From Prochlorococcus sp. MIT 1223 (GTDB taxonomy: Bacteria; Cyanobacteriota; Cyanobacteriia; PCC-6307; Cyanobiaceae), in contig NZ_CP139303.1 of the NCBI RefSeq assembly GCF_034092465.1, positions 186,001 to 250,000 of the forward strand: DNA of 64,000 bases, in the 5' to 3' direction. Positions 9,056 to 62,899 of this stretch are shown one piece after another. Each line of letters begins with the position of its first letter. The stretch's first letter is position 1. The notes beneath the pieces are model-generated. The model searched no databases. It was not told the DNA's origin and saw nothing but the letters and a program-made list of their open reading frames with translations. A program made the position numbers and the translations under genes.

Positions 9056-10408
9056 TTAAACTTTCTCTGATGTTTTTTCTTTTTTTGATTCGCTCCCACT
9101 TTTTAATGAGCTGGAAGCAAGCATTGCATTTACCTCTTTTTCATCCCTCACAGCACTTGGTACAGGCTTATAAGTTTTAGGGGCCAACGCTCCGCCTCTT
9201 AAGACTGAGCCTATTGTTAGGAACGTTAGTTTCAATTGCTGTAATGGTTTCATGGCAACAACAGTTTTATATAAATAACTATCGAATGTCATCCTTTGAA
9301 CGTCCATGTCATCACACATTTCTACAAAGGCTTCTCTAGCAGAATCACTTGTATAAAAAATTCTTTGAAGAATATCAAGCACCTTATAGGTTGCACCATA
9401 TTTTTTATCCCATTTACTTAGATACTTTTTAAGGTCTTTTTCTGTTGGAATAACTTTTCCACCTTGACTGGCTTCAACAATTTCCTCAGCACACATTCTT
9501 CCACTTTTGGCTGCAAAGTAAATTCCTTCTCCAGAACTCTTTGTTACATATCCAGCAGCATCTCCAACTAATGCCATTCGTCCTACAACTCGTCTTGGGC
9601 GAGGATGTTCAGGAATTGGATGGGCCTCTATTTTTATTACTTCTCCATTTACAAGCCTTTTCTTTGCCCTTTCTCTTACTCCTGCTTGAAGGCTTTTGAT
9701 CAATGAGCCATTATCTTTCATTGTTCCAGTTCCTGCCGCAACATGATCATATTTTGGGAAAACCCACCCATAGAAATCGGGGGAAACATCAGTTCCTACA
9801 TACATTTCTGCCCTGTCTTCATAATATTTCATTTCTTCAGGTGGAAGCTTTATTCTTTCTTGTATAGCAACTGCATAGTTGTAATCACCTGCATCCATTA
9901 CTTTTGCAACTCTGCTTGTCGCCCCATCAGCACCAACTATTAAGTCAACTTCAAGTTTCTTTGACTCGCCATTGGTGTTTTCTTTTGTGTATTCAGTGTA
10001 AGTAAGTGTATAGGGACCAAGTTTGTTCTTCCCTGTATCTATATGACTAACAAGTCCATTTACTAAGTTTGCGCCTAAATCTGATGCTCTGTTTCTCATA
10101 AATGCATCCATTACCTCTCTTCTACACATCCCTATGTATTCCTTTTCACTGTCCTCGTAAATCTTGTCTAATCTAATATCCACTTCTCTATTTGATGGGG
10201 AAATCATTCTCATATTTCTAACCTTCCTATCAATTATTGATTCGGGAAGGTCAAATTCAGAGACCATGCATAGAGGAATTGCTCCTCCACATGGTTTTGC
10301 ATTGTCTAGTTTCCTTTCAAACAACCATGTTTGAATGCCTGCCTTTGCAAGAATTTCAGCTGCACAGGAACCACTTGGCCCACCACCGATAACTGCTACA
10401 CGCAACAT
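9056..10408 (-). CDS. chlP: Geranylgeranyl reductase ChlP
   Basis: Reduces geranylgeranyl diphosphate, or the geranylgeranyl tail of chlorophyll, to phytyl using NADPH, so it serves chlorophyll, tocopherol and phylloquinone synthesis at the thylakoid. The 450-residue protein starts with an FAD-binding Rossmann motif (VIGGGPSGSCAAEILAKAGI, residues 7-26), then has the PCGGAIP segment, a second flavin motif VGADGATSRVA and the GD motif RMALVGDAAGYVTKSSGEGI typical of ChlP. The last 25 residues are a charged tail. The 112-base gap upstream is a divergent promoter region shared with the VanY-like gene. Confidence 0.97.
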   Translation of the reverse strand: MLRVAVIGGGPSGSCAAEILAKAGIQTWLFERKLDNAKPCGGAIPLCMVSEFDLPESIIDRKVRNMRMISPSNREVDIRLDKIYEDSEKEYIGMCRREVMDAFMRNRASDLGANLVNGLVSHIDTGKNKLGPYTLTYTEYTKENTNGESKKLEVDLIVGADGATSRVAKVMDAGDYNYAVAIQERIKLPPEEMKYYEDRAEMYVGTDVSPDFYGWVFPKYDHVAAGTGTMKDNGSLIKSLQAGVRERAKKRLVNGEVIKIEAHPIPEHPRPRRVVGRMALVGDAAGYVTKSSGEGIYFAAKSGRMCAEEIVEASQGGKVIPTEKDLKKYLSKWDKKYGATYKVLDILQRIFYTSDSAREAFVEMCDDMDVQRMTFDSYLYKTVVAMKPLQQLKLTFLTIGSVLRGGALAPKTYKPVPSAVRDEKEVNAMLASSSLKSGSESKKEKTSEKV

Positions 10409-10520: not shown

Positions 10521-11261
10521 GTGCGTCGAGCAGAGGGAGCTCGAAGAGATCAGAATACTGACATTCCTGTGGCTCACAGGATTAATCCTATTCGTAGGTT
10601 TAGTTCGAAGAGGCTTGGCCAGTTAGCTATTTCTTCAGTATTTATTAGTATTTCAGCTACTGTTTTTCTCTTCTATTTTATTTATAAACCATCTTTGATA
10701 GAAAAAGCAGCTTTAAATGACGCAAATTCTATTAGGAAAGAAAGCTTATTAGGTCATTACCCTTATCCAGAGGTTTCTGCTGATGAGTTGGTTATGCTTT
10801 ATCCAGGATTCAAAGTCCATAAGGATACTCTTGTTGCTTTGAAAAGGATGCAAGCAGATGCTTACCAAGATGGAGTTGAGTTAGTTTTTTTAAGTGGATT
10901 CCGATCTATTGATTTGCAAAGAGAGATTTTTTATGAAAATAAATCAATAAGAAATCAAATAGCTGTAGAAAGATCAAAAGTATCTGCTCCGCCTGGGTAT
11001 TCTGAGCACAGTACTGGTTATGCAGTTGATATAGGAGATCGGAATATGCGAGAGACTGATTTTGAGGTCTCCTTTGAATTAACACCCGCTTTTAAATGGT
11101 TGGAGAAAAATGCAGCAAAGTACCATTTTGTTCTTTCTTTCCCAAAAGGGAATGTCCAAAAGATAAGCTATGAACCCTGGCATTGGAGGTATGAGGGAAC
11201 GGTAAAAGCTTTGAAGCAATTTGAACCAGCTAATAGATCAGTAATTAATCATTCAAGGTAG
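10521..11261 (+). CDS. D-alanyl-D-alanine carboxypeptidase, VanY-like (peptidase M15B), membrane-anchored
   Basis: A zinc carboxypeptidase expected to trim the terminal D-Ala from peptidoglycan stem peptides. In 246 residues: a basic N-terminus, one membrane segment (about 33-56) that should anchor it with the enzyme outside, then the M15B domain. Key residues are SGFRS (Arg at about 128), His163 and Asp170 in SEHSTGYAVDIGD, and Glu218 and His221 in YEPWHWRYEG. The start is GTG. A 153-base gap separates it from typA, so the two need not be co-transcribed. Confidence 0.9.
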   Translation: MRRAEGARRDQNTDIPVAHRINPIRRFSSKRLGQLAISSVFISISATVFLFYFIYKPSLIEKAALNDANSIRKESLLGHYPYPEVSADELVMLYPGFKVHKDTLVALKRMQADAYQDGVELVFLSGFRSIDLQREIFYENKSIRNQIAVERSKVSAPPGYSEHSTGYAVDIGDRNMRETDFEVSFELTPAFKWLEKNAAKYHFVLSFPKGNVQKISYEPWHWRYEGTVKALKQFEPANRSVINHSR

Positions 11262-54949: not shown

Positions 54950-55681
54950 ATGGATTATTCAAGAATTATAAACAAATATTTACCAGATATAGAGCTTTTT
55001 CAAGCTAATAAACCGACGCTATTGATAATTCTTGGCTCTTTTGGAGATTTTGATAGTTTCGAGTATGGACAATTAATTTCTAGGAAACTTGAGGTTCTAC
55101 AAGAGTTGAATATAAATTTAGTTGCGATTGGGATTGGTAGTCAAGAATCGAAAATCAAATTTTCTAATTTCACGAGATTGCCACATTCATTCCTGTTTAA
55201 TGTAGAAAATAACTATCTTCACAATGATCTGGGCCTTGAAGATGGATATAAATATGACCTTGGCCCATTCTTTAACTTGATTTTAATGTGTACAGGGTTT
55301 AATTCTCCTGGAACTTTGAGAGAGGTACTTAGAGGCTATACAGGCGACAAGTCTTCTGAAGCAATTTTTTTAAAGGAAGAAACCATATCTTTACTACCAT
55401 TCTTTTCTATAGAGACATCGTTGTTTAATAGATTAAGAAATAACAAATCTCTTCGTCCATTTGAACTAGCATCTCAGCGCCTAATAAATATGGTAGAAGT
55501 ATTATCGAATTGGAATAAATATGTTCCCATCAATAAGTTTATAGTCCAAAGAGGAGCAACATTACTCTTTAATGAAACCGAGCAACTAGTTTATTCATAT
55601 ATGCCTAAGTCACTCCTCTGTTTTTCTGAGACTATGGATAAACCATTGGAATTTATAGATAGTAACCTTAGAAATAAATAA
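54950..55681 (+). CDS. Peroxiredoxin-like (AhpC/TSA-related) protein without visible catalytic cysteine
   Basis: A 243-residue protein resembling the AhpC/TSA-related PRX-like group: PTLLIILGSFGDFDSFEYGQ occupies the usual active-site region, followed by LVAIGIGSQESKIKF and the GLEDGYKYDLGP segment. In enzymatic relatives this site contains a Cys (as in FxCPxC), which is absent here. Activity as a peroxidase is doubtful. It is divergent from the Pcb gene across 257 bases, and followed 4 bases later by a small zinc-ribbon gene, suggesting a pair. Confidence 0.7.
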   Translation: MDYSRIINKYLPDIELFQANKPTLLIILGSFGDFDSFEYGQLISRKLEVLQELNINLVAIGIGSQESKIKFSNFTRLPHSFLFNVENNYLHNDLGLEDGYKYDLGPFFNLILMCTGFNSPGTLREVLRGYTGDKSSEAIFLKEETISLLPFFSIETSLFNRLRNNKSLRPFELASQRLINMVEVLSNWNKYVPINKFIVQRGATLLFNETEQLVYSYMPKSLLCFSETMDKPLEFIDSNLRNK

Positions 55682-55685
55682 TAAA

Positions 55686-55895
55686 ATGAATTATAAGCAA
55701 TGCAATTATTGTGCAAGTAAAAATATAAGAGCAGATAGAGCTCTTGGAGGACGTTTTGTTTGTATGGCCTGTGGTAAAATAATTAGTTCAAGATCTGTTA
55801 ATTATAATTTGAGCACAAAATATTCTGGAAATAATCGAATTATAAAATTTGTTTTAATAGCTTTAGTTATTTTTATATTTATCATAGTGATTTAA
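55686..55895 (+). CDS. Small zinc-ribbon membrane protein
   Basis: A 69-residue protein with two CxxC pairs (Cys6 and Cys9 in CNYC; Cys26 and Cys29 in CMAC), forming a zinc ribbon, followed by a basic linker and one C-terminal hydrophobic helix (about 50-69). It looks like a tail-anchored metal-binding protein. The function is unknown. It lies 4 bases after the peroxiredoxin-like gene. Confidence 0.72.
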   Translation: MNYKQCNYCASKNIRADRALGGRFVCMACGKIISSRSVNYNLSTKYSGNNRIIKFVLIALVIFIFIIVI

Positions 55896-55900
55896 TAATT

Positions 55901-56698
55901 TTAATTCGGCATTGATCTCCAGTAACCATTATGTTTAAATAATTTGATATTGGTATCAAATAATTTATTTATTTTATCTGTTGTTAATATACTATTTGAA
56001 TCACCTTGGTCAATAAGCCTACCTTGTTTAAATAACATAATTCTAGTTGTATCTTTTATTATAGTTTCTAAATTATTTGTAACGACAACTAAGGTTATTC
56101 CCTTTTTAATTAATTGTTCAACAATATTAAATAGTCTCAGAACTTCTTTAATATCTAGATTTATTGTAGGTTCGTCTAAAATAAGTATTTTAGGTTTATT
56201 GACAACTGCTCTAGCAAGCAAAACTACTCTTTTTTGTCCATCAGATAAATTACTATAATTAGCTGATATAAATTCCTCAGTAAACTCAAATATGTCTGAT
56301 ATATGCTTAATAGCTTTCTCCACGTTTTTGTTTCTATAATGATTTATATTAAATCCAATCGTCCCATAAAGAGCGGAGCATATAACTTCTTCTACTGACA
56401 TATTGCGATTTATTCTTTTATCTAGTTCTATATTTAAGAAACTAATCTTGCTTCTTAACTCCCATATATTTATATTCTTTTTGCCAAATATTTCTATGGT
56501 CGAATAATCATTGAATACTGGATATATCTCTCGACTGATTAACTTTATAAATGTTGATTTCCCAGATCCATTAGGACCTAATATCGTAATAACTTCTTCT
56601 TCTTTGAGTTCAATATTTATTTTTGAAAGAATAAGTTTATTATCTTTTACTACGTCTATATTCTTTAGTTTTAGCCAAGTATTATTTGTTACTAGCAT
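55901..56698 (-). CDS. ABC transporter ATP-binding protein, orphan
   Basis: A 265-residue ATPase: Walker A GPNGSGKST, signature NLSDGQKRVVLLARAV (with SDGQK in place of SGGQ), Walker B ILILDEPT and VVTNNLETI where the switch His (normally VTHD) is replaced by Asn. The pattern resembles the ModF/YlmA-type stand-alone ATPases. No permease lies nearby. It is read with the Rieske oxygenase gene, 28 bases downstream of that gene's stop, so the pair may act together, or the ATPase may energise an unlinked permease. Confidence 0.82.
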   Translation of the reverse strand: MLVTNNTWLKLKNIDVVKDNKLILSKINIELKEEEVITILGPNGSGKSTFIKLISREIYPVFNDYSTIEIFGKKNINIWELRSKISFLNIELDKRINRNMSVEEVICSALYGTIGFNINHYRNKNVEKAIKHISDIFEFTEEFISANYSNLSDGQKRVVLLARAVVNKPKILILDEPTINLDIKEVLRLFNIVEQLIKKGITLVVVTNNLETIIKDTTRIMLFKQGRLIDQGDSNSILTTDKINKLFDTNIKLFKHNGYWRSMPN

Positions 56699-56726
56699 TT
56701 TATGCCCTCTGGGGATGGCTTTTTAT

Positions 56727-58085
56727 TTAAATTAGCAGGATTATAAAACCAATAGGAATTAAGGCTCTAATCAGTGTATTCATTCTTATGGATCTCATAT
56801 TTTTTATGGCTAATGATGGATTCTCTGGTGGATACAGCATCCCCATATCTTCATGTATTGAGTTTGTATTTTTAGTTGTTGGGTGAAGTTCCCATGGCTT
56901 ATCTCTTATAAATGCATTTTGCAACCAGTCCCAGTAATATTGAACCATTTTATCTTCTCCTAATAACTTAACGTTATCTTTTTCTATATAACCCATTTGA
57001 TGATTGAAGGTTTGTGTTCTTAATATTAGATAATCCTCTTTAAATACTTGGTAAAATAATTTATGTTGTAATTGTCTAAACATAATAATTCTATTCAATA
57101 ATTTATTCTTTAAGAATTTCCTATAATGTCTAACAATTACCCTCGCTCTATTTTGTGCTAGTGGAATATGGTCTAGCACTTGAACATATCTGGAGGTTTC
57201 AGGCGCACCTTTATAAATCATTACCCTTCCAGGAGGTATGAATTTAATTGTTATAAACTCCCCTTTATCTTTATCTTTATGATTGTATTTACTTTGTATC
57301 TGGTATTTATCTCTAATTATTTCTTGATCAAAACTAGTTATAACATTTTTACTTACGTCTTTATCAGGTATTGTCTCTCCATGTACCCAGAATATGTGAA
57401 GTATATCTAGATGGTTTTCAATTATTCTTACCCAGTCCGCTTTAAAATCTACAGTGACTTCTTCATGTTCATATTCAGAAATATTAAAACCATACGTATC
57501 AGGTATAGTTTGTTCAAGCTTTGATTCTATATTGAATTCGTTTATATCTGTTTTAGCTTTACCAGTATAATATATATATATATAACCATCCCTTTCTATA
57601 CATGGATATTGATATAGATGAATCTTCTTTGCATAGTTATCGTAGTTTGTATCTACAATATGATTACAAGTGATTCTATCAATATTGGTGCAATTACCTT
57701 TAGAGGAAAATCTAGCTCCATGATACGGGCAAACAAGCTCACCATCCTTTATTTCGCCTCCAATGAAAGATGAACCTCTATGTGGACATAGATCTTTAAT
57801 ACATTTTATATTTGAATCATTATCTCTATATATAATCAATGGTTCATTAAACATAGAAAAAGAATATAATTTATTTTCATTCAGTGAATAACTGCTTAAA
57901 ACTGAATACCACCCAAGTAGTGATCCTTCCAGTTGGTTAGAAGGACGAGGTGATGCCTCTTTTTTAACCTTGACTTCGTTATTTTTTTTCAGTTCCGTAT
58001 TTAAAGTAGCTTTATTAGCAAACTTAAGCTCTTTTATTTTTTTTAAGCCTTCATTGCTCATAGAAAAAGCTTGCTTTAGGAGCAA
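56727..58085 (-). CDS. Rieske non-heme iron oxygenase, PaO/CAO type
   Basis: A 452-residue oxygenase. The Rieske [2Fe-2S] ligands are Cys100 and His102 (CPHRGSS) and Cys119 and His122 (CPYHGARFS). The mononuclear iron site is E223-x3-D227-x2-H230-x4-H235 (ENHLDILHIFWVH). A C-terminal helix (about 434-452) anchors it to the membrane. The family includes pheophorbide a oxygenase, Tic55, PTC52 and chlorophyllide a oxygenase. In Prochlorococcus the chlorophyll b-forming oxygenase belongs to this group, so that is one possibility; another is a chlorophyll-degradation or unrelated ring oxygenase. The N-terminal ~50 residues are a basic linker. Probably transcribed ahead of the orphan ATPase. Confidence 0.88.
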   Translation of the reverse strand: MLLKQAFSMSNEGLKKIKELKFANKATLNTELKKNNEVKVKKEASPRPSNQLEGSLLGWYSVLSSYSLNENKLYSFSMFNEPLIIYRDNDSNIKCIKDLCPHRGSSFIGGEIKDGELVCPYHGARFSSKGNCTNIDRITCNHIVDTNYDNYAKKIHLYQYPCIERDGYIYIYYTGKAKTDINEFNIESKLEQTIPDTYGFNISEYEHEEVTVDFKADWVRIIENHLDILHIFWVHGETIPDKDVSKNVITSFDQEIIRDKYQIQSKYNHKDKDKGEFITIKFIPPGRVMIYKGAPETSRYVQVLDHIPLAQNRARVIVRHYRKFLKNKLLNRIIMFRQLQHKLFYQVFKEDYLILRTQTFNHQMGYIEKDNVKLLGEDKMVQYYWDWLQNAFIRDKPWELHPTTKNTNSIHEDMGMLYPPENPSLAIKNMRSIRMNTLIRALIPIGFIILLI

Positions 58086-58284
58086 AGTGTTTTAGATTTG
58101 TCAGTCATTCAAACCAACTGGGTATAAATCATAATATTTCCTTCTCCTATAGCTATCTAGCATTACCTGGTTTTTTTATACAAGCCCTTTTATCACAACG
58201 TTACCAATGGTATTACAATATGTATTGAACTTGAAGTAATTATATTAAATAGGGGTGACACGGTGTAGAGAATTATTCTTCAAA

Positions 58285-58464
58285 TTAATGCCTTTCTTTG
58301 CTTTTTACGTAGTTAGTAGCCTCGTCAATATCATTGCAGAATTTACAGGAGCCCATATAGCACCCAAGGTATCTAAGAAAATCACGTTTACCCCCAGATA
58401 AGCTGTACTTATGAATTGTTCCACCTTGTGGCGTAGAAAGAATCAGTTCAGGTAATGGGCTCAT
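58285..58464 (-). CDS. Small cysteine-motif protein (59 residues)
   Basis: An ATG-started frame of 59 codons, below the usual length cut-offs. The protein begins MSPLPELILSTPQGGTIHKY and contains GGKRDFLRYLGCYMGSCKFC, with three cysteines in a C-x4-C-x2-C arrangement, and a final EATNYVKSK. The pattern suggests a real small metal-binding protein. The function is unknown. It sits alone between the Rieske gene and the MaoC operon in a strongly AT-rich stretch. Confidence 0.62.
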   Translation of the reverse strand: MSPLPELILSTPQGGTIHKYSLSGGKRDFLRYLGCYMGSCKFCNDIDEATNYVKSKERH

Positions 58465-58922
58465 TTGGTTTCTTATTTTTCTTTAAAATGCATCTTGGGT
58501 TACATGAAGGCAATAGGTAGAATTACTATTTGCTCTATTGCTTTTATTCAATTTTGTTTTTATTCCTTAAGGACATAATTTTCATATGATTTTTAGCTGA
58601 CGCTGAAGCTGCTTATCATGTTGAAAAATTGTAGGTATCTGCTCGTTGTGAATAGATGAACAAAGGTTAAGCAAATTCATTCTTTAGTGAAAGAAAATGA
58701 TTGTTTTTTATTTTGAGTTCGATACTTAGGGCAATTTATTAAATAAAAGTAAATTGTCAAATCTTCCTTCAAAAAAACAAAGTAGTATATAAGTGTATAA
58801 TTTTATTATTGTTTTTCACTTTATGCTTTCATTCTCTAATGTTGTAAGCCCTTCCTGTTTAACTTATACTATGTTTTAGTATATTATTAATTATTATTTT
58901 ACTTTATCTAAAATTACTCTTA
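58465..58922. other. AT-rich gap of 458 bases before the MaoC operon
   Basis: No recognisable gene is seen. It holds a 24-residue hydrophobic frame on the plus strand (58,504-58,578) that could encode a tiny membrane peptide but lacks a clear ribosome site, and a short frame reading ADAEAAYHVEKL (near 58,597) without a start codon that looks like a gene remnant. The MaoC promoter should lie within the last 100 bases. The length is unusual for this compact chromosome. Confidence 0.5.
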
Positions 58923-59342
58923 ATGTTTTATATTAATGACTTTAATGTTGGCCACACACTTAAACACCATATTGAGATAACAGAAGAGCTTCATAATTCA
59001 TTTGGTTTAATGTCCGGAGATAATAGTCCTATTCATAATGATTCTGATTTCTCAAAATCTTCTATTTATAAAAAGCCAATTGGTTATGCCTTTTTAATAA
59101 CAGCTCTTTTATCAAGGATTTATGGCACTGTCTTCCCAGGTGGATCAGAGTTATGTCTTAGCCAGACTTGTAGTTTTAAAAAGGAATATTATGTTGGAGA
59201 TACCCTAGAGTTTGTACTAAAGGTAATTCATAAGAATGACAGTATGAGAATAGCTACAATTGATAATTTAGTTTTGAATCAAGACCAAGAAATTATTTTT
59301 TCTGGTCAAGCCATAATGCAATTAATCCTAGGATGTAAATGA
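58923..59342 (+). CDS. MaoC-like hot-dog dehydratase
   Basis: A 139-residue hot-dog protein related to R-specific enoyl-CoA hydratases. The catalytic motif SGDNSPIHND (Asp33, His38) matches the S/GDxNPxHxD signature of MaoC, followed by the usual KPIGYAFLITALLS helix. Expected activity is hydration or dehydration of a 3-hydroxyacyl thioester, on CoA or ACP; in this cluster the carrier protein may be the substrate. Its stop overlaps the next start by 4 bases (ATGA). Confidence 0.85.
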   Translation: MFYINDFNVGHTLKHHIEITEELHNSFGLMSGDNSPIHNDSDFSKSSIYKKPIGYAFLITALLSRIYGTVFPGGSELCLSQTCSFKKEYYVGDTLEFVLKVIHKNDSMRIATIDNLVLNQDQEIIFSGQAIMQLILGCK

Positions 59343-60151
59343 AAATTTTTCTTGATGATGATGATAAATATATTGATATCGATTCGTTCGTGTCATCTCT
59401 TCAGCGCTATATAAATCCAGGGGATTTTATATATGTAGAGATGGATCTTATGAGTTTTGGCAGACTATATAATCCTGAAATCTCTAGAGATGAGTTTTTG
59501 GAGGCATTTTTTCAAATATTCTATGAATTAATTGGTCCGAAAGGTCATATGAGCTTTCCTTCTTTTTCTTATAGCTGGGGTTGTGATAAAGATTCTAAGA
59601 TTTTTGATAAGCTAAGTACCCCTGGGAAGGTTGGTGTTTTCCCAGAGTTTATAAGAAACAGATTAAACTCTTTTCGTACCAATGATCCAATGTTTTCTGT
59701 TGTTGTTCATGGACCAAAGGCTGAAGAAATTAGTTGTATAACTCCCTCATCATTTGGTCAAGGCTCGTTCTTTCATAAATTACATGGTTTCAACGCTAAG
59801 TTAATAAGTTTTGGACTTAATCAATATGATCCTACCTTTGTGCATTACGCAGAACAGTTTTTTGATGAGAATATACGTAAGATTAATTATCGTAAATCTA
59901 TTAATTTTTCTGGAATCCTTATAGAGAATAATATTTCTAAAGAAGCTGAGCATGAAGCCTTTATGAGGGATCTAAATTCAGGACTAATGTTTAACGATAA
60001 AAATCTTAAAAGAGATCTTATGAGCAAAAATAAGTTAAATTCTTTAAAGATAGGTGTAGGTGATATATATATTTCAGATAGCAAGGATGTTTTTGATACT
60101 TGCATAGAAGGAATGACTATGGAACCTTATTATTTATGTAAATCAATTTAA
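59339..60151 (+). CDS. AAC(3)-family acyltransferase
   Basis: A 270-residue protein of the aminoglycoside N3-acetyltransferase fold. Family motifs: VEMDLMSFGRLYN near the start, then RTNDPMFSVVVHG (the usual R-x-x-HP is RTNDP here), SSFGQGSFFHKLHGFNAKLI and the catalytic pair His169 and Glu172 in TFVHYAEQ. These enzymes transfer an acyl group to an amino group; many are in polysaccharide or natural-product clusters and not resistance genes. Here the likely donor is the carrier protein two genes on. Strong coupling to MaoC and the adenylation gene. Confidence 0.85.
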   Translation: MKIFLDDDDKYIDIDSFVSSLQRYINPGDFIYVEMDLMSFGRLYNPEISRDEFLEAFFQIFYELIGPKGHMSFPSFSYSWGCDKDSKIFDKLSTPGKVGVFPEFIRNRLNSFRTNDPMFSVVVHGPKAEEISCITPSSFGQGSFFHKLHGFNAKLISFGLNQYDPTFVHYAEQFFDENIRKINYRKSINFSGILIENNISKEAEHEAFMRDLNSGLMFNDKNLKRDLMSKNKLNSLKIGVGDIYISDSKDVFDTCIEGMTMEPYYLCKSI

Positions 60152-60153
60152 AA

Positions 60154-61689
60154 ATGTGGAACTATAACCTTGCTAGTCGGTTTGAATCTGTCGTTAGCGA
60201 TTACTCTAAAAACAAAGCTATTGTTATTGATAGTATAGACTATACATATGAAGAATTAGATTTACTTAGTAATAAAATAGCAGGATATTTAACTTCTTTG
60301 GGAATCTCAAGAGGTAATGTAATTTGCCTTGGTGGAGAGAAGTCATTTAATTTATACTCTATTGTTATTGCTTGCTGGAAGACAGGCACTACCTATTTCT
60401 TTGTTGATACAGATTCTCCAATATCAAGAATTAAATTAATGATAGATAGGTGTAATCCAACCTTAATGATGGGTAATGATAACTTTATTAATTTGGTCAA
60501 AAATCATTATAAGGAAATAAGGTGCTTGTCTATAAAGAAAAATTATGACGAAATAATCAAATTCTCCAATAATTTTAAGGTGAAGAATATCCCTGGAGAT
60601 ACTATCTCTTATATTATGTTTACTTCTGGTTCGACAGGAGAACCTAATGGAGTAGCCGTCGCTCATAGTAGTATATTGCTTTTTTCAGATTGGGCTAAGA
60701 ATGAATATTTAATATCTTCAAAAGATATTATCTCTGGTCTTAATCAACTATTTTTTGATAACTCAGTTTTTGACATTTATGTGGCACTACTTAATGGAGC
60801 AACGCTAATCCCCGTTAAAAAGTCTTTATTAAATAATCCAAATAAGGTGGTAAAGTTACTAAATGATAGTCGAATAACGATTTGGTTTTCAGTCCCATCA
60901 TTGATTGTCTTCTATCTTAAATTTGGCTCTATAAAAAAAGACTCCCTTAAGAACCTCAGGTATATTATATTTGGAGGAGAAGGCTTTCCAAAGAGTAAAC
61001 TATTAGAATTATTTAATATTATTGGTGACAGAGTAATTCTAAGTAATGTTTATGGACCTACAGAAGCAACATGTATCTGTTCAAGCTATTCAATAAATTC
61101 AAGTGATTTCGATGATATTGAAATGAATAGGTTGGCTCCTATTGGCACCATAAACTCAAATTTTCGTTATAATATATTAGATAAGGATAAAAATCAGGTA
61201 CAGGTAGGTCAGGTTGGAGAACTTGTATTATCAGGCCCCCACCTTAGTAAGGGATACTTCAATAATACTTCTAAAACAAATCAACGATTTATACAGAATC
61301 CAAATAATAAAAATTATATAGAAATCATGTATTTTACAGGTGATTTAGTTAAATTAGATTCTAAGAATAAATTAATGTATTTTTGTGGAAGAATAGACAA
61401 TCAAATTAAGTTTATGGGATACCGAATAGAATTAGGAGAAATTGAATCTTGTTTAAATAAAGAGGAAAATATAAATGAGTGTTGCGTTCTTTTTGGAAGA
61501 AAGAATAACTTAGAGCAAATTACTAGTTTTATATCTACTGATCTTTCCAGAAATGATGTGCTTCAAATACTTTTAGCTCAGCTTCCAACTTATATGATAC
61601 CTAGAGATATCTTAACTTTCAAAAATCTGCCGAAAAATCAAAATGGTAAAATTGATAGAATTAAACTAGCAGAAGATTATTATGACTAA
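60154..61689 (+). CDS. Stand-alone amino-acid adenylation enzyme (DltA/NRPS-type)
   Basis: A 511-residue adenylation protein. Core motifs: A3 TSGSTGEPNG (157-166), A4 FDNSVFDIY with Asp202 (the residue that pairs with the alpha-amino group in NRPS A domains), A5 NVYGPTEAT (298-306), A7 YFTGDL, A8 GRIDNQIKFMGYRIELGEIE and A10 PKNQNGKIDR with the catalytic Lys499. The size and presence next to a separate carrier protein recall DltA/DltC. Hand alignment with GrsA gives a pocket of D, N, F, F, I, G, V, C, I, K, with no assigned substrate. It follows AAC(3) by 2 bases. Confidence 0.9.
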   Translation: MWNYNLASRFESVVSDYSKNKAIVIDSIDYTYEELDLLSNKIAGYLTSLGISRGNVICLGGEKSFNLYSIVIACWKTGTTYFFVDTDSPISRIKLMIDRCNPTLMMGNDNFINLVKNHYKEIRCLSIKKNYDEIIKFSNNFKVKNIPGDTISYIMFTSGSTGEPNGVAVAHSSILLFSDWAKNEYLISSKDIISGLNQLFFDNSVFDIYVALLNGATLIPVKKSLLNNPNKVVKLLNDSRITIWFSVPSLIVFYLKFGSIKKDSLKNLRYIIFGGEGFPKSKLLELFNIIGDRVILSNVYGPTEATCICSSYSINSSDFDDIEMNRLAPIGTINSNFRYNILDKDKNQVQVGQVGELVLSGPHLSKGYFNNTSKTNQRFIQNPNNKNYIEIMYFTGDLVKLDSKNKLMYFCGRIDNQIKFMGYRIELGEIESCLNKEENINECCVLFGRKNNLEQITSFISTDLSRNDVLQILLAQLPTYMIPRDILTFKNLPKNQNGKIDRIKLAEDYYD

Positions 61690-61915
61690 AGGCGAAATAA
61701 ACGAAATCATTTGTTCGGTAGCTAGAATAGAAAAAATTGAGAATGATCAACCATTAATTTCTTCTAGTATACTTGATTCTTTCTCTATATTAATTTTGAT
61801 ATCCAAGTTGGAATTAAAATTTAATATCACAATAGCCTTAGAAGATATAGATATTAGCAATATAGATACAGTAGATAAAATATACGATTTATTAACCTCT
61901 ATGAATACTGTATAA
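61682..61915 (+). CDS. Acyl (peptidyl) carrier protein
   Basis: A 77-residue carrier protein. The phosphopantetheine attachment serine is Ser33 in ISSSILDSFSILILI, matching the D-S-L/F motif. Helix 3 follows with the EDIDISNIDTVDKI region typical of ACPs. Its start overlaps the adenylation gene by 8 bases, so the pair should be made together as DltA and DltC are. It presumably receives the adenylated substrate as a thioester. A 4'-phosphopantetheinyl transferase is not in the window. Confidence 0.88.
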   Translation: MTKGEINEIICSVARIEKIENDQPLISSSILDSFSILILISKLELKFNITIALEDIDISNIDTVDKIYDLLTSMNTV

Positions 61916-61944
61916 TTATTTCACAATCTTTAAATATTAAAACT

Positions 61945-62523
61945 TTGAATTCAAAAGAATGGGAGGACAGTTATTCAAGTAACTCGTTTTCAAATAAGAA
62001 TGAATATCCTTCTGAAGAAATTGTTTCATTTATTATGAGGAGATTTTCAGATGTAAAGGATTTTTCGAATATAGAATGTTTAGACTTGGGATGTGGTTGG
62101 GGCAATAATCTTAGGTTTCTGAAAGACAAAGGATTTTCTTATTCAGGTGTTGATTTTTCAAAAACGGCAATTAATCACTGCAAGCTAAATCATAAGAATG
62201 TATATTGCAATTCAGTTGAGGATATGCCGTTCCCTAATGAATCTTTTGATGTTGCGTTTGATCGTATGTGTATACAGCATAATGAATTAAGTAAAATACC
62301 AAAAATTTTTAGTGAGGTCCACAGAGTATTAAAAAGTTCTGGGGTCTTTTTTTCTATTTTAGTAGAGAAAGCAAATTATAACTATACTACAAGTTACTTA
62401 AGTCGAGATCAAATAGAAGAAATAAGCTCCATTTTTTCCTCTATTAATCTAGATTATATAGAGAGATCTTATGAAGGAGGGCATCATATTGTTAGGGCGA
62501 ATATATTAACAGCCATTAAATAA
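61945..62523 (+). CDS. SAM-dependent methyltransferase
   Basis: A 192-residue class I methyltransferase of the Methyltransf_11/25 type. SAM motif I is LDLGCGWGNN (46-55), motif II FSYSGVDFS, the next is VEDMPFPNESFDVAFDRM, then LSEVHRVLKSSG-like FSEVHRVLKSSG. The start is TTG, chosen because WEDSYSSN at the N-terminus is the usual W-x-x-x-Y beginning. Its acceptor is unknown; it could methylate the amino acid or sugar handled by the preceding genes. A gap of 29 bases follows the carrier protein gene. Confidence 0.82.
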   Translation: MNSKEWEDSYSSNSFSNKNEYPSEEIVSFIMRRFSDVKDFSNIECLDLGCGWGNNLRFLKDKGFSYSGVDFSKTAINHCKLNHKNVYCNSVEDMPFPNESFDVAFDRMCIQHNELSKIPKIFSEVHRVLKSSGVFFSILVEKANYNYTTSYLSRDQIEEISSIFSSINLDYIERSYEGGHHIVRANILTAIK

Positions 62524-62790
62524 TAATCTCATTATTTAATTTTAGAAGTAAGAAATCAGTTTGCATAAAATAGACTTTATTTATATAAATATTTATGAGA
62601 GTGATTTTAATGGAATAGTCTTTTTAATTTGGATGTCGGGTTCTGAGTCCTAAATGAATTAGGGACCCAGGTTGCATCGCAAAAATAGATAGGACAATTA
62701 AATAAGAACAAATTCGATCAAGCTATAACTTGAATCATTAGGTTTTTGCTCTTTATATAATTTCCGCGTCTATCTACTAAGGTTCGCATT
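62524..62790. other. 267-base gap between methyltransferase and terminator
   Basis: No coding frame is recognised. A segment near 62,638-62,672 can fold as a hairpin (GGGT with ACCC and TCCTAA with TTAGG), not clearly followed by a T tract. A small RNA is possible but unsupported. Confidence 0.3.
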
Positions 62791-62819
62791 AAAAAAGCCT
62801 GTCATAGACAGGCTTTTTT
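62791..62819 (-). terminator. Bidirectional terminator between methyltransferase region and tRNA-fMet
   Basis: GCCTGTC and GACAGGC form a 7-bp G-C-rich stem extended by six A-T pairs, around an ATA loop. It is symmetric, with A and T runs on both sides, so it can end transcription on both strands, for example the tRNA gene and the preceding operon. Confidence 0.92.
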
Positions 62820-62822
62820 AAT

Positions 62823-62899
<77 letters not shown>

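Follow-up and report, generated by a model that had tools for sequence, protein, structure and literature searches.

A five-gene operon beside tRNA-Met in Prochlorococcus sp. MIT 1223 as a candidate carrier-dependent N-acylation cassette

What reaction could require, side by side, a MaoC-like protein, an acyltransferase of the AAC(3) fold, a stand-alone adenylation enzyme, a carrier protein and a methyltransferase? The question is raised by an operon at positions 58923-62523 of a stretch of Prochlorococcus sp. MIT 1223 DNA (hereafter the window) that comprises 64,000 bases and corresponds to positions 186001-250000 of the source genome, a single contig of 1,795,922 bases (GCF_034092465.1, NZ_CP139303.1). 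The answer that we favor, with moderate confidence and on what the sequences suggest, is that the operon encodes a carrier-dependent N-acylation cassette, whose task is probably the transfer of an aminoacyl group to a surface amino sugar. Its parts are known from the sugar-coat clusters of other bacteria but are arranged here in a new way, and that they act together is strongly supported.

All five genes lie intact and tightly packed on the plus strand, as a first-pass annotation made from the sequence alone had described them, and its family names are borne out by Pfam and NCBIfam matches, each protein exceeding the curated Pfam cut-off of its own family. The MaoC-like gene (58923-59342) overlaps the AAC(3) gene (59339-60151) by 4 bases (59339/59342); after a 2-base gap follows the adenylation gene (60154-61689, 511 aa), which in turn overlaps the carrier gene (61682-61915, 77 aa) by 8 bases (61682/61689), and a 29-base gap precedes the methyltransferase gene (61945-62523, 192 aa), which begins at a TTG codon upstream of which, in frame, a stop is reached before any alternative start. 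Promoter and terminator scans of the operon region gave results no better than those of shuffled sequences.

The AAC(3)-fold N-acyltransferase, for which we propose carrier-dependent acyl transfer to an amine, matches PF02522 (Antibiotic_NAT; 1.5e-21, 77.5 bits against a cut-off of 25). Alignment places its catalytic motif, intact as T166-F-V-H169-Y-A-E172, at 59834-59854 of the plus strand, and His169 is shared by all 17 aligned proteins; the Antibiotic_NAT family is known for this TxxHxAE motif and its His/Glu dyad (PMC8956665). An AlphaFold2 model of middling confidence (predicted local distance difference test, pLDDT, 65; predicted template modeling score, pTM, 0.70) has AAC(3) structures as its nearest folds (VIA Z 17.5-20.1 over 230-246 residues at 3.0-3.6 Å), matches that agree with the sequence result; we draw no substrate claims from the model. 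FrbF and the clinical AAC(3) enzymes share the Antibiotic_NAT fold and the TxxHxAE motif but take acetyl-coenzyme A as donor, whereas the proposed donor here is a discrete carrier.

The adenylation enzyme retains the A-domain core motifs and matches PF00501 (AMP-binding, 3e-61); the NCBIfam model of amino acid adenylation domains (AA-adenyl-dom, TIGR01733) is reached with 319 bits, barely above its cut-off of 317.4. Alignment to the structures of DltA and of L-Pro-carrier ligases puts Asp202 at the alpha-amino-binding position, in register with DltA Asp197. These two features favor an amino acid as the most likely loaded substrate, and the aligned pocket positions, taken together with published A-domain codes, permit the weak prediction of a larger aliphatic side chain. 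The carrier matches PF00550 (PP-binding; 4.4e-5, 24.1 bits against a cut-off of 20.8) and bears its phosphopantetheine site at Ser33 (codon 61778-61780), within a D32-S33 pair that is invariant among AAC(3)-linked carriers. The adenylation enzyme also matches phrog_28622 of the PHROGs collection, a phage-assigned family of 5652 positions, presumably of the nonribosomal peptide synthetase kind.

The evidence that these proteins form one system comes from their recurrence in other genomes. When the neighborhoods of 22 loci bearing an AAC(3) of the broad group were examined, the window counted in, 15 had a carrier close to the AAC(3) (14 recognized by profile search and one, a Sinorhizobium fusion, by eye), a figure that is a description and not a blind test, the carrier profile having been built partly from the counted loci; nine of those 15 loci also contain an adenylation or AMP-ligase enzyme. 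On plasmid pMl2 of Sinorhizobium medicae (locus L006, 6910-9648) a single protein of 912 aa unites an adenylation domain, a carrier-like stretch, recognized by its IDSL site between both enzymes, and an AAC(3). Three further picocyanobacteria, as well as Bacillota, have AAC(3)-carrier pairs with an adenylation enzyme alongside. These independent loci and the three-part fusion support the earlier proposal that adenylation enzyme, carrier and AAC(3) make up one acyl-to-amine system. The genes flanking the Sinorhizobium fusion encode PhzF, ATP-grasp, glutamate kinase and major facilitator superfamily (MFS) proteins, and the ensemble resembles an undescribed small-molecule cluster.

Four of the loci lie in genomes of the same cyanobacterial family. 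Genome G328 carries in a row a phosphopantetheinyl transferase (PPTase), a formyltransferase, AAC(3), a VOC protein, a carrier, an adenylation enzyme and a hotdog protein, with pseC ~6 kb off; G751 has AAC(3), carrier, AMP ligase, PPTase and DUF4910; G085 has DUF4910, AAC(3), carrier and AMP ligase; and G752 has AAC(3), a MaoC-SDR protein (SDR, short-chain dehydrogenase/reductase), FkbH and a carrier. Plasmids of Maritalea and Erwinia encode AAC(3)-FkbH fusions followed by MaoC-SDR-carrier genes, and in G257 (locus L021, 894-3008) the AAC(3) is fused to DUF4910/DUF2172, a fusion that suggests a common sugar substrate for the aminopeptidase-like protein and the acyltransferase, the former perhaps removing and the latter restoring an acyl group. 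Genes for DUF4910, pseB, pseC or NeuB flank many other AAC(3) loci. Two distant Bacillota, Paenibacillus cellulosilyticus (L009/L032) and Phascolarctobacterium (L031), have in common a cluster of the order carrier, SDR, AAC(3), adenylation enzyme, GNAT or formyltransferase, carrier, KASIII and metallo-hydrolase. What the cassettes of G328, G751, G752, G085 and the Bacillota share with the window is the adjacency of AAC(3), carrier and adenylation enzyme (or FkbH); their AAC(3) proteins, however, are only ~25-31% identical to that of the window, and only in the window does MaoC occur with an adenylation enzyme and a methyltransferase close the row. MaoC is thus a recurring partner, but in the relatives it occurs with FkbH as loader, so that the first-pass annotation's remark that homologues lacking AAC(3) and MaoC neighbors would speak against the system meets a mixed outcome: the AAC(3)-carrier pair recurs, MaoC does so only sometimes.

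The operon itself is private to the source genome. Close relatives of its AAC(3) were found neither in 84,980 genomes nor in the viral collection, which likewise held no close relative of the adenylation enzyme, and phages gave no AAC(3) match. At an E-value of 1e-4 or better the AAC(3) matched proteins in only seven others of 400 same-family genomes (26-31% identity), and it occurred in only eight others of 386 genomes sampled from the phylum. The conserved stretches of seven aligned AAC(3) proteins were insufficient for a degenerate scan; three sequences led to four loci.

As we infer the course of loading and transfer, the acceptor, the acyl group and the roles of MaoC and the methyltransferase, a PPTase, probably that of a pseudaminic-type locus elsewhere in the genome, would arm Ser33 of the carrier, whereupon the adenylation enzyme would activate and load onto the carrier a carboxylic acid, an amino acid being the likeliest. 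MaoC might then hydrate or dehydrate the beta position of the thioester, the methyltransferase might methylate the acyl group, or both might act, in either order, on the thioester or on the product. By means of its His-Glu dyad the AAC(3)-fold enzyme would finally take the acyl group off the carrier thioester and join it to a free amine as an amide; the acceptor would most likely be the amine of a nonulosonate-type or other cell-surface amino sugar, made by a nucleotide-sugar pathway with its genes at another site in the genome.

A candidate for such a pathway is a pseudaminic-type locus of the source genome (G000:C1; L050, L051 and L101) at ~642-666 kb, 400 kb from the operon. It encodes PseB (505 bits, cut-off 408), PseI (381 bits, cut-off 340) and an FkbH above its cut-off, together with PseC, a PseG-like protein, DUF4910, a class III aminotransferase, a second carrier and a MaoC-SDR protein, and it holds the one PPTase (PF01648) detected genome-wide. 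It lacks an AAC(3), no second copy of which was found in the source genome. With a pseudaminic-type locus and its PPTase at hand, the operon need not be the stand-alone, minimal system that it was first taken for, and the surface amino sugar proposed as acceptor at that stage is plausible because many relatives sit in pseudaminic-acid or other sugar clusters.

In the flagellin-glycan locus of Campylobacter jejuni we take Cj1295 to be of the DUF2172/DUF4910 kind, Cj1296/7 to be AAC(3)-like and Cj1307 to be an amino acid activating enzyme; on that assumption the likeness is that a Cj1295-type protein adjoins AAC(3), or is fused to it, in the window's relatives, and the difference is that the Campylobacter parts lie within the pse locus, whereas here they stand alone at tRNA-Met, with MaoC present and with neither DUF4910 nor FkbH beside them. 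The aminopeptidase-like Cj1295 is required for 5-(2,3-di-O-methylglyceroyl)amino-pseudaminate, which bears this group on N5, and the adjacent Cj1296/7 is listed as an N-acetyltransferase (PMC3068675), while Cj1299 and Cj1308 are listed as acyl carrier proteins (PMC3749442, PMC6338021). The group II flagellar glycosylation islands of Aeromonas similarly combine a carrier and an AMP-dependent synthetase with pse genes, but the available excerpt of their description names no AAC(3) (PMC7874193). The initial statement that no Prochlorococcus pathway of this layout has been described holds for the five-gene arrangement, which was not found for Prochlorococcus in the literature searched (subscription journals lay mostly outside its coverage), and does not hold for its components, similar parts being present in same-family relatives and in Campylobacter.

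Several observations nevertheless weigh against the transfer of an aminoacyl group to a surface sugar. The pseudaminic-type locus of the source genome already has a GNAT acetyltransferase and, because of this enzyme, may be complete without the operon and may need no AAC(3). No sugar, glycosyltransferase or pse gene adjoins the operon, which stands alone at tRNA-Met; of the features that would define a nonulosonate N-acylation cassette, AAC(3) beside a carrier is present and adjacency to pse or NeuB genes is absent. In the window MaoC accompanies an adenylation enzyme, whereas the MaoC-bearing relatives use FkbH. Trees of the AAC(3) and of the adenylation enzyme have long branches and do not unite the cassette members in one clade; functions may for this reason differ between loci, and either repeated assembly of the cassette or a signal too old to recover may lie behind the pattern. 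Lastly, the cluster around the Sinorhizobium fusion probably makes a small molecule and not a glycan.

This last point leads to the strongest of the competing explanations, namely that the same chemistry is directed to a soluble amine and yields a small acyl-amide, secreted or intracellular (siderophore-like, signaling or protective), unrelated to surface glycans. The absence of glycan genes beside the operon is in keeping with it, as are the Sinorhizobium protein in its PhzF, ATP-grasp, glutamate kinase and MFS surroundings and a Vibrio plasmid gene, the nearest relative of the adenylation enzyme among the sequences used for the trees, which lies beside ATP-grasp and MFS genes. The operon, however, has no transporter and no further amide-forming gene, and most same-family AAC(3)-carrier relatives are found in sugar clusters; we regard a soluble product as unlikely, if worth keeping in sight.

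The proposed loading of an amino acid also has to accommodate MaoC, which is the chief difficulty of the proposal. The protein is a hotdog protein of the (R)-specific enoyl-thioester hydratase type (PF01575, MaoC_dehydratas; 2.8e-10, 40.3 bits against a cut-off of 27) whose phmmer matches include the (R)-specific enoyl-CoA hydratases 5cpg (6.1e-13) and 1iq6 (1.4e-12), and in alignment with the latter its catalytic dyad, Asp33-x4-His38, is conserved. Its reaction requires a beta-hydroxy or enoyl thioester and is hard to square with a plain amino acid, so that three possibilities present themselves: a beta-hydroxylated acid, a loaded unit other than an alpha-amino acid, or a different role for MaoC. 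The second of these options corresponds to a variant in which a hydroxy or enoyl acid is loaded; MaoC would then establish an (R)-3-hydroxyacyl group, and the product of AAC(3) would be a sugar with an N-(3-hydroxyacyl) substituent. Bacterial amino sugars commonly carry 3-hydroxyacyl amides, and the retained hydratase dyad and the FkbH of the MaoC-bearing relatives, presumably a loader of glyceryl units, would suit this variant; the score above the cut-off of the amino acid model TIGR01733 and the Asp202 at the alpha-amino-binding position do not, and it appears to us more doubtful than a soluble product. The methyltransferase (PF08241, Methyltransf_11, 9.9e-19) depends on S-adenosylmethionine; it gave the only PADLOC match, a generic one to mad2, from which no defense system is inferred.

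Between a conserved Rieske gene and tRNA-Met lies a variable slot (58086-62822), delimited by synteny between the window and four relatives (G057, G011, G078 and G040) that share the gene order ferritin, Crp-type regulator, pcb, AhpC/TSA2, ABC ATPase, Rieske protein, slot, tRNA-Met, asparaginase. The upstream ABC and Rieske genes are backbone and lie outside the operon. The slot is empty in G078, holds a nucleotide-sugar epimerase in G057 and holds the five genes in the window. In G011 and G040 it contains another pcb antenna gene that has 65% identity to the pcb of the window (L096, 9662-10720; L098, 2561-3619). Its boundary, which the first-pass annotation had correctly placed near the end of the operon as a tRNA-fMet, is a tRNA-Met (CAT) on the minus strand (62823-62899; ARAGORN; Rfam RF00005, 65 bits) with its 3' end toward the operon.

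A further relative, G086 (L093), has two identical full-length tRNA-Met copies (9109-9185 and 10939-11015) that bracket a 562-aa glycosyltransferase gene beside asparaginase, a footprint that insertion at a tRNA gene would leave; Prochlorococcus tycheposons use seven tRNA genes, tRNA-Met among them (PMC10872708). A tyrosine recombinase is absent from the open reading frames of the slot in the window, and the far end of that slot shows neither direct repeats nor a partial copy of the tRNA. We conclude that the operon is probably mobile cargo, because the slot is empty or differently filled in relatives and the tRNA is duplicated in one of them, and we do not file it as a tycheposon, because the slot has neither a recombinase nor a partial tRNA copy. 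The accessory character noted at the outset is hence upheld by synteny, unlike the AT-richness cited with it: at 30.0% guanine plus cytosine the operon hardly differs from the equally AT-rich conserved genes immediately upstream (54950-58085, 29.4%), and AT-richness was discarded as a sign of foreign DNA. Occurrence in one genome at a tRNA-Met insertion slot could also denote decaying cargo without function in its host; five open frames, intact catalytic motifs and overlapping junctions make this improbable.

Still less can be said for envelope D-alanylation of the DltA/DltC type, which would give the adenylation enzyme the DltA-like function initially ascribed to it. The likeness lies in the combination of a stand-alone adenylation enzyme with a discrete carrier; DltA models rank among the enzyme's better NCBIfam matches, and D-alanyl carriers are the best, weak matches to the carrier. 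Yet the enzyme reaches only about half of the TIGR01734 cut-off (291.1 bits against 559.85), the carrier falls below both DltC cut-offs (28.1 against 68 and 20.4 against 52.35), and Gly274 occupies the column of DltA Cys269 (B. cereus numbering), the residue that presumably selects D-alanine. Membership in DltA is rejected on score and pocket residue, the operon has no DltB or DltD gene, and D-alanylation is a very remote prospect. Least credible of all is an aminoglycoside resistance gene among unrelated neighbors, for which the Antibiotic_NAT family, its intact motif and the nearest AAC(3) folds might speak, but which we reject, the protein scoring far under the NCBIfam AAC_3 resistance equivalog (34.2 bits against 270), overlapping MaoC by 4 bases and having carrier neighbors that recur in relatives.

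These results invite a broader, clearly tentative suggestion: AAC(3)-fold enzymes accompanied by a discrete carrier might constitute a general, unnamed class of carrier-dependent N-aminoacyl or N-acyl transferases for amino sugars, of which the source genome would hold a mobile version with a new combination of MaoC and adenylation domain; carried as strain-specific cargo, this version would act in trans to remodel the N-acyl group on a surface sugar. Within the examined loci both the mobile, in-trans form and the pairing of MaoC with an adenylation enzyme are new. Surface sugars govern the recognition of picocyanobacteria by phages and grazers, and a mobile cassette that alters one N-acyl group would be a cheap change of coat. 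The findings also suggest that many environmental genes annotated as aminoglycoside acetyltransferases are carrier-dependent biosynthetic acyltransferases, a distinction that matters for resistance-gene surveys.

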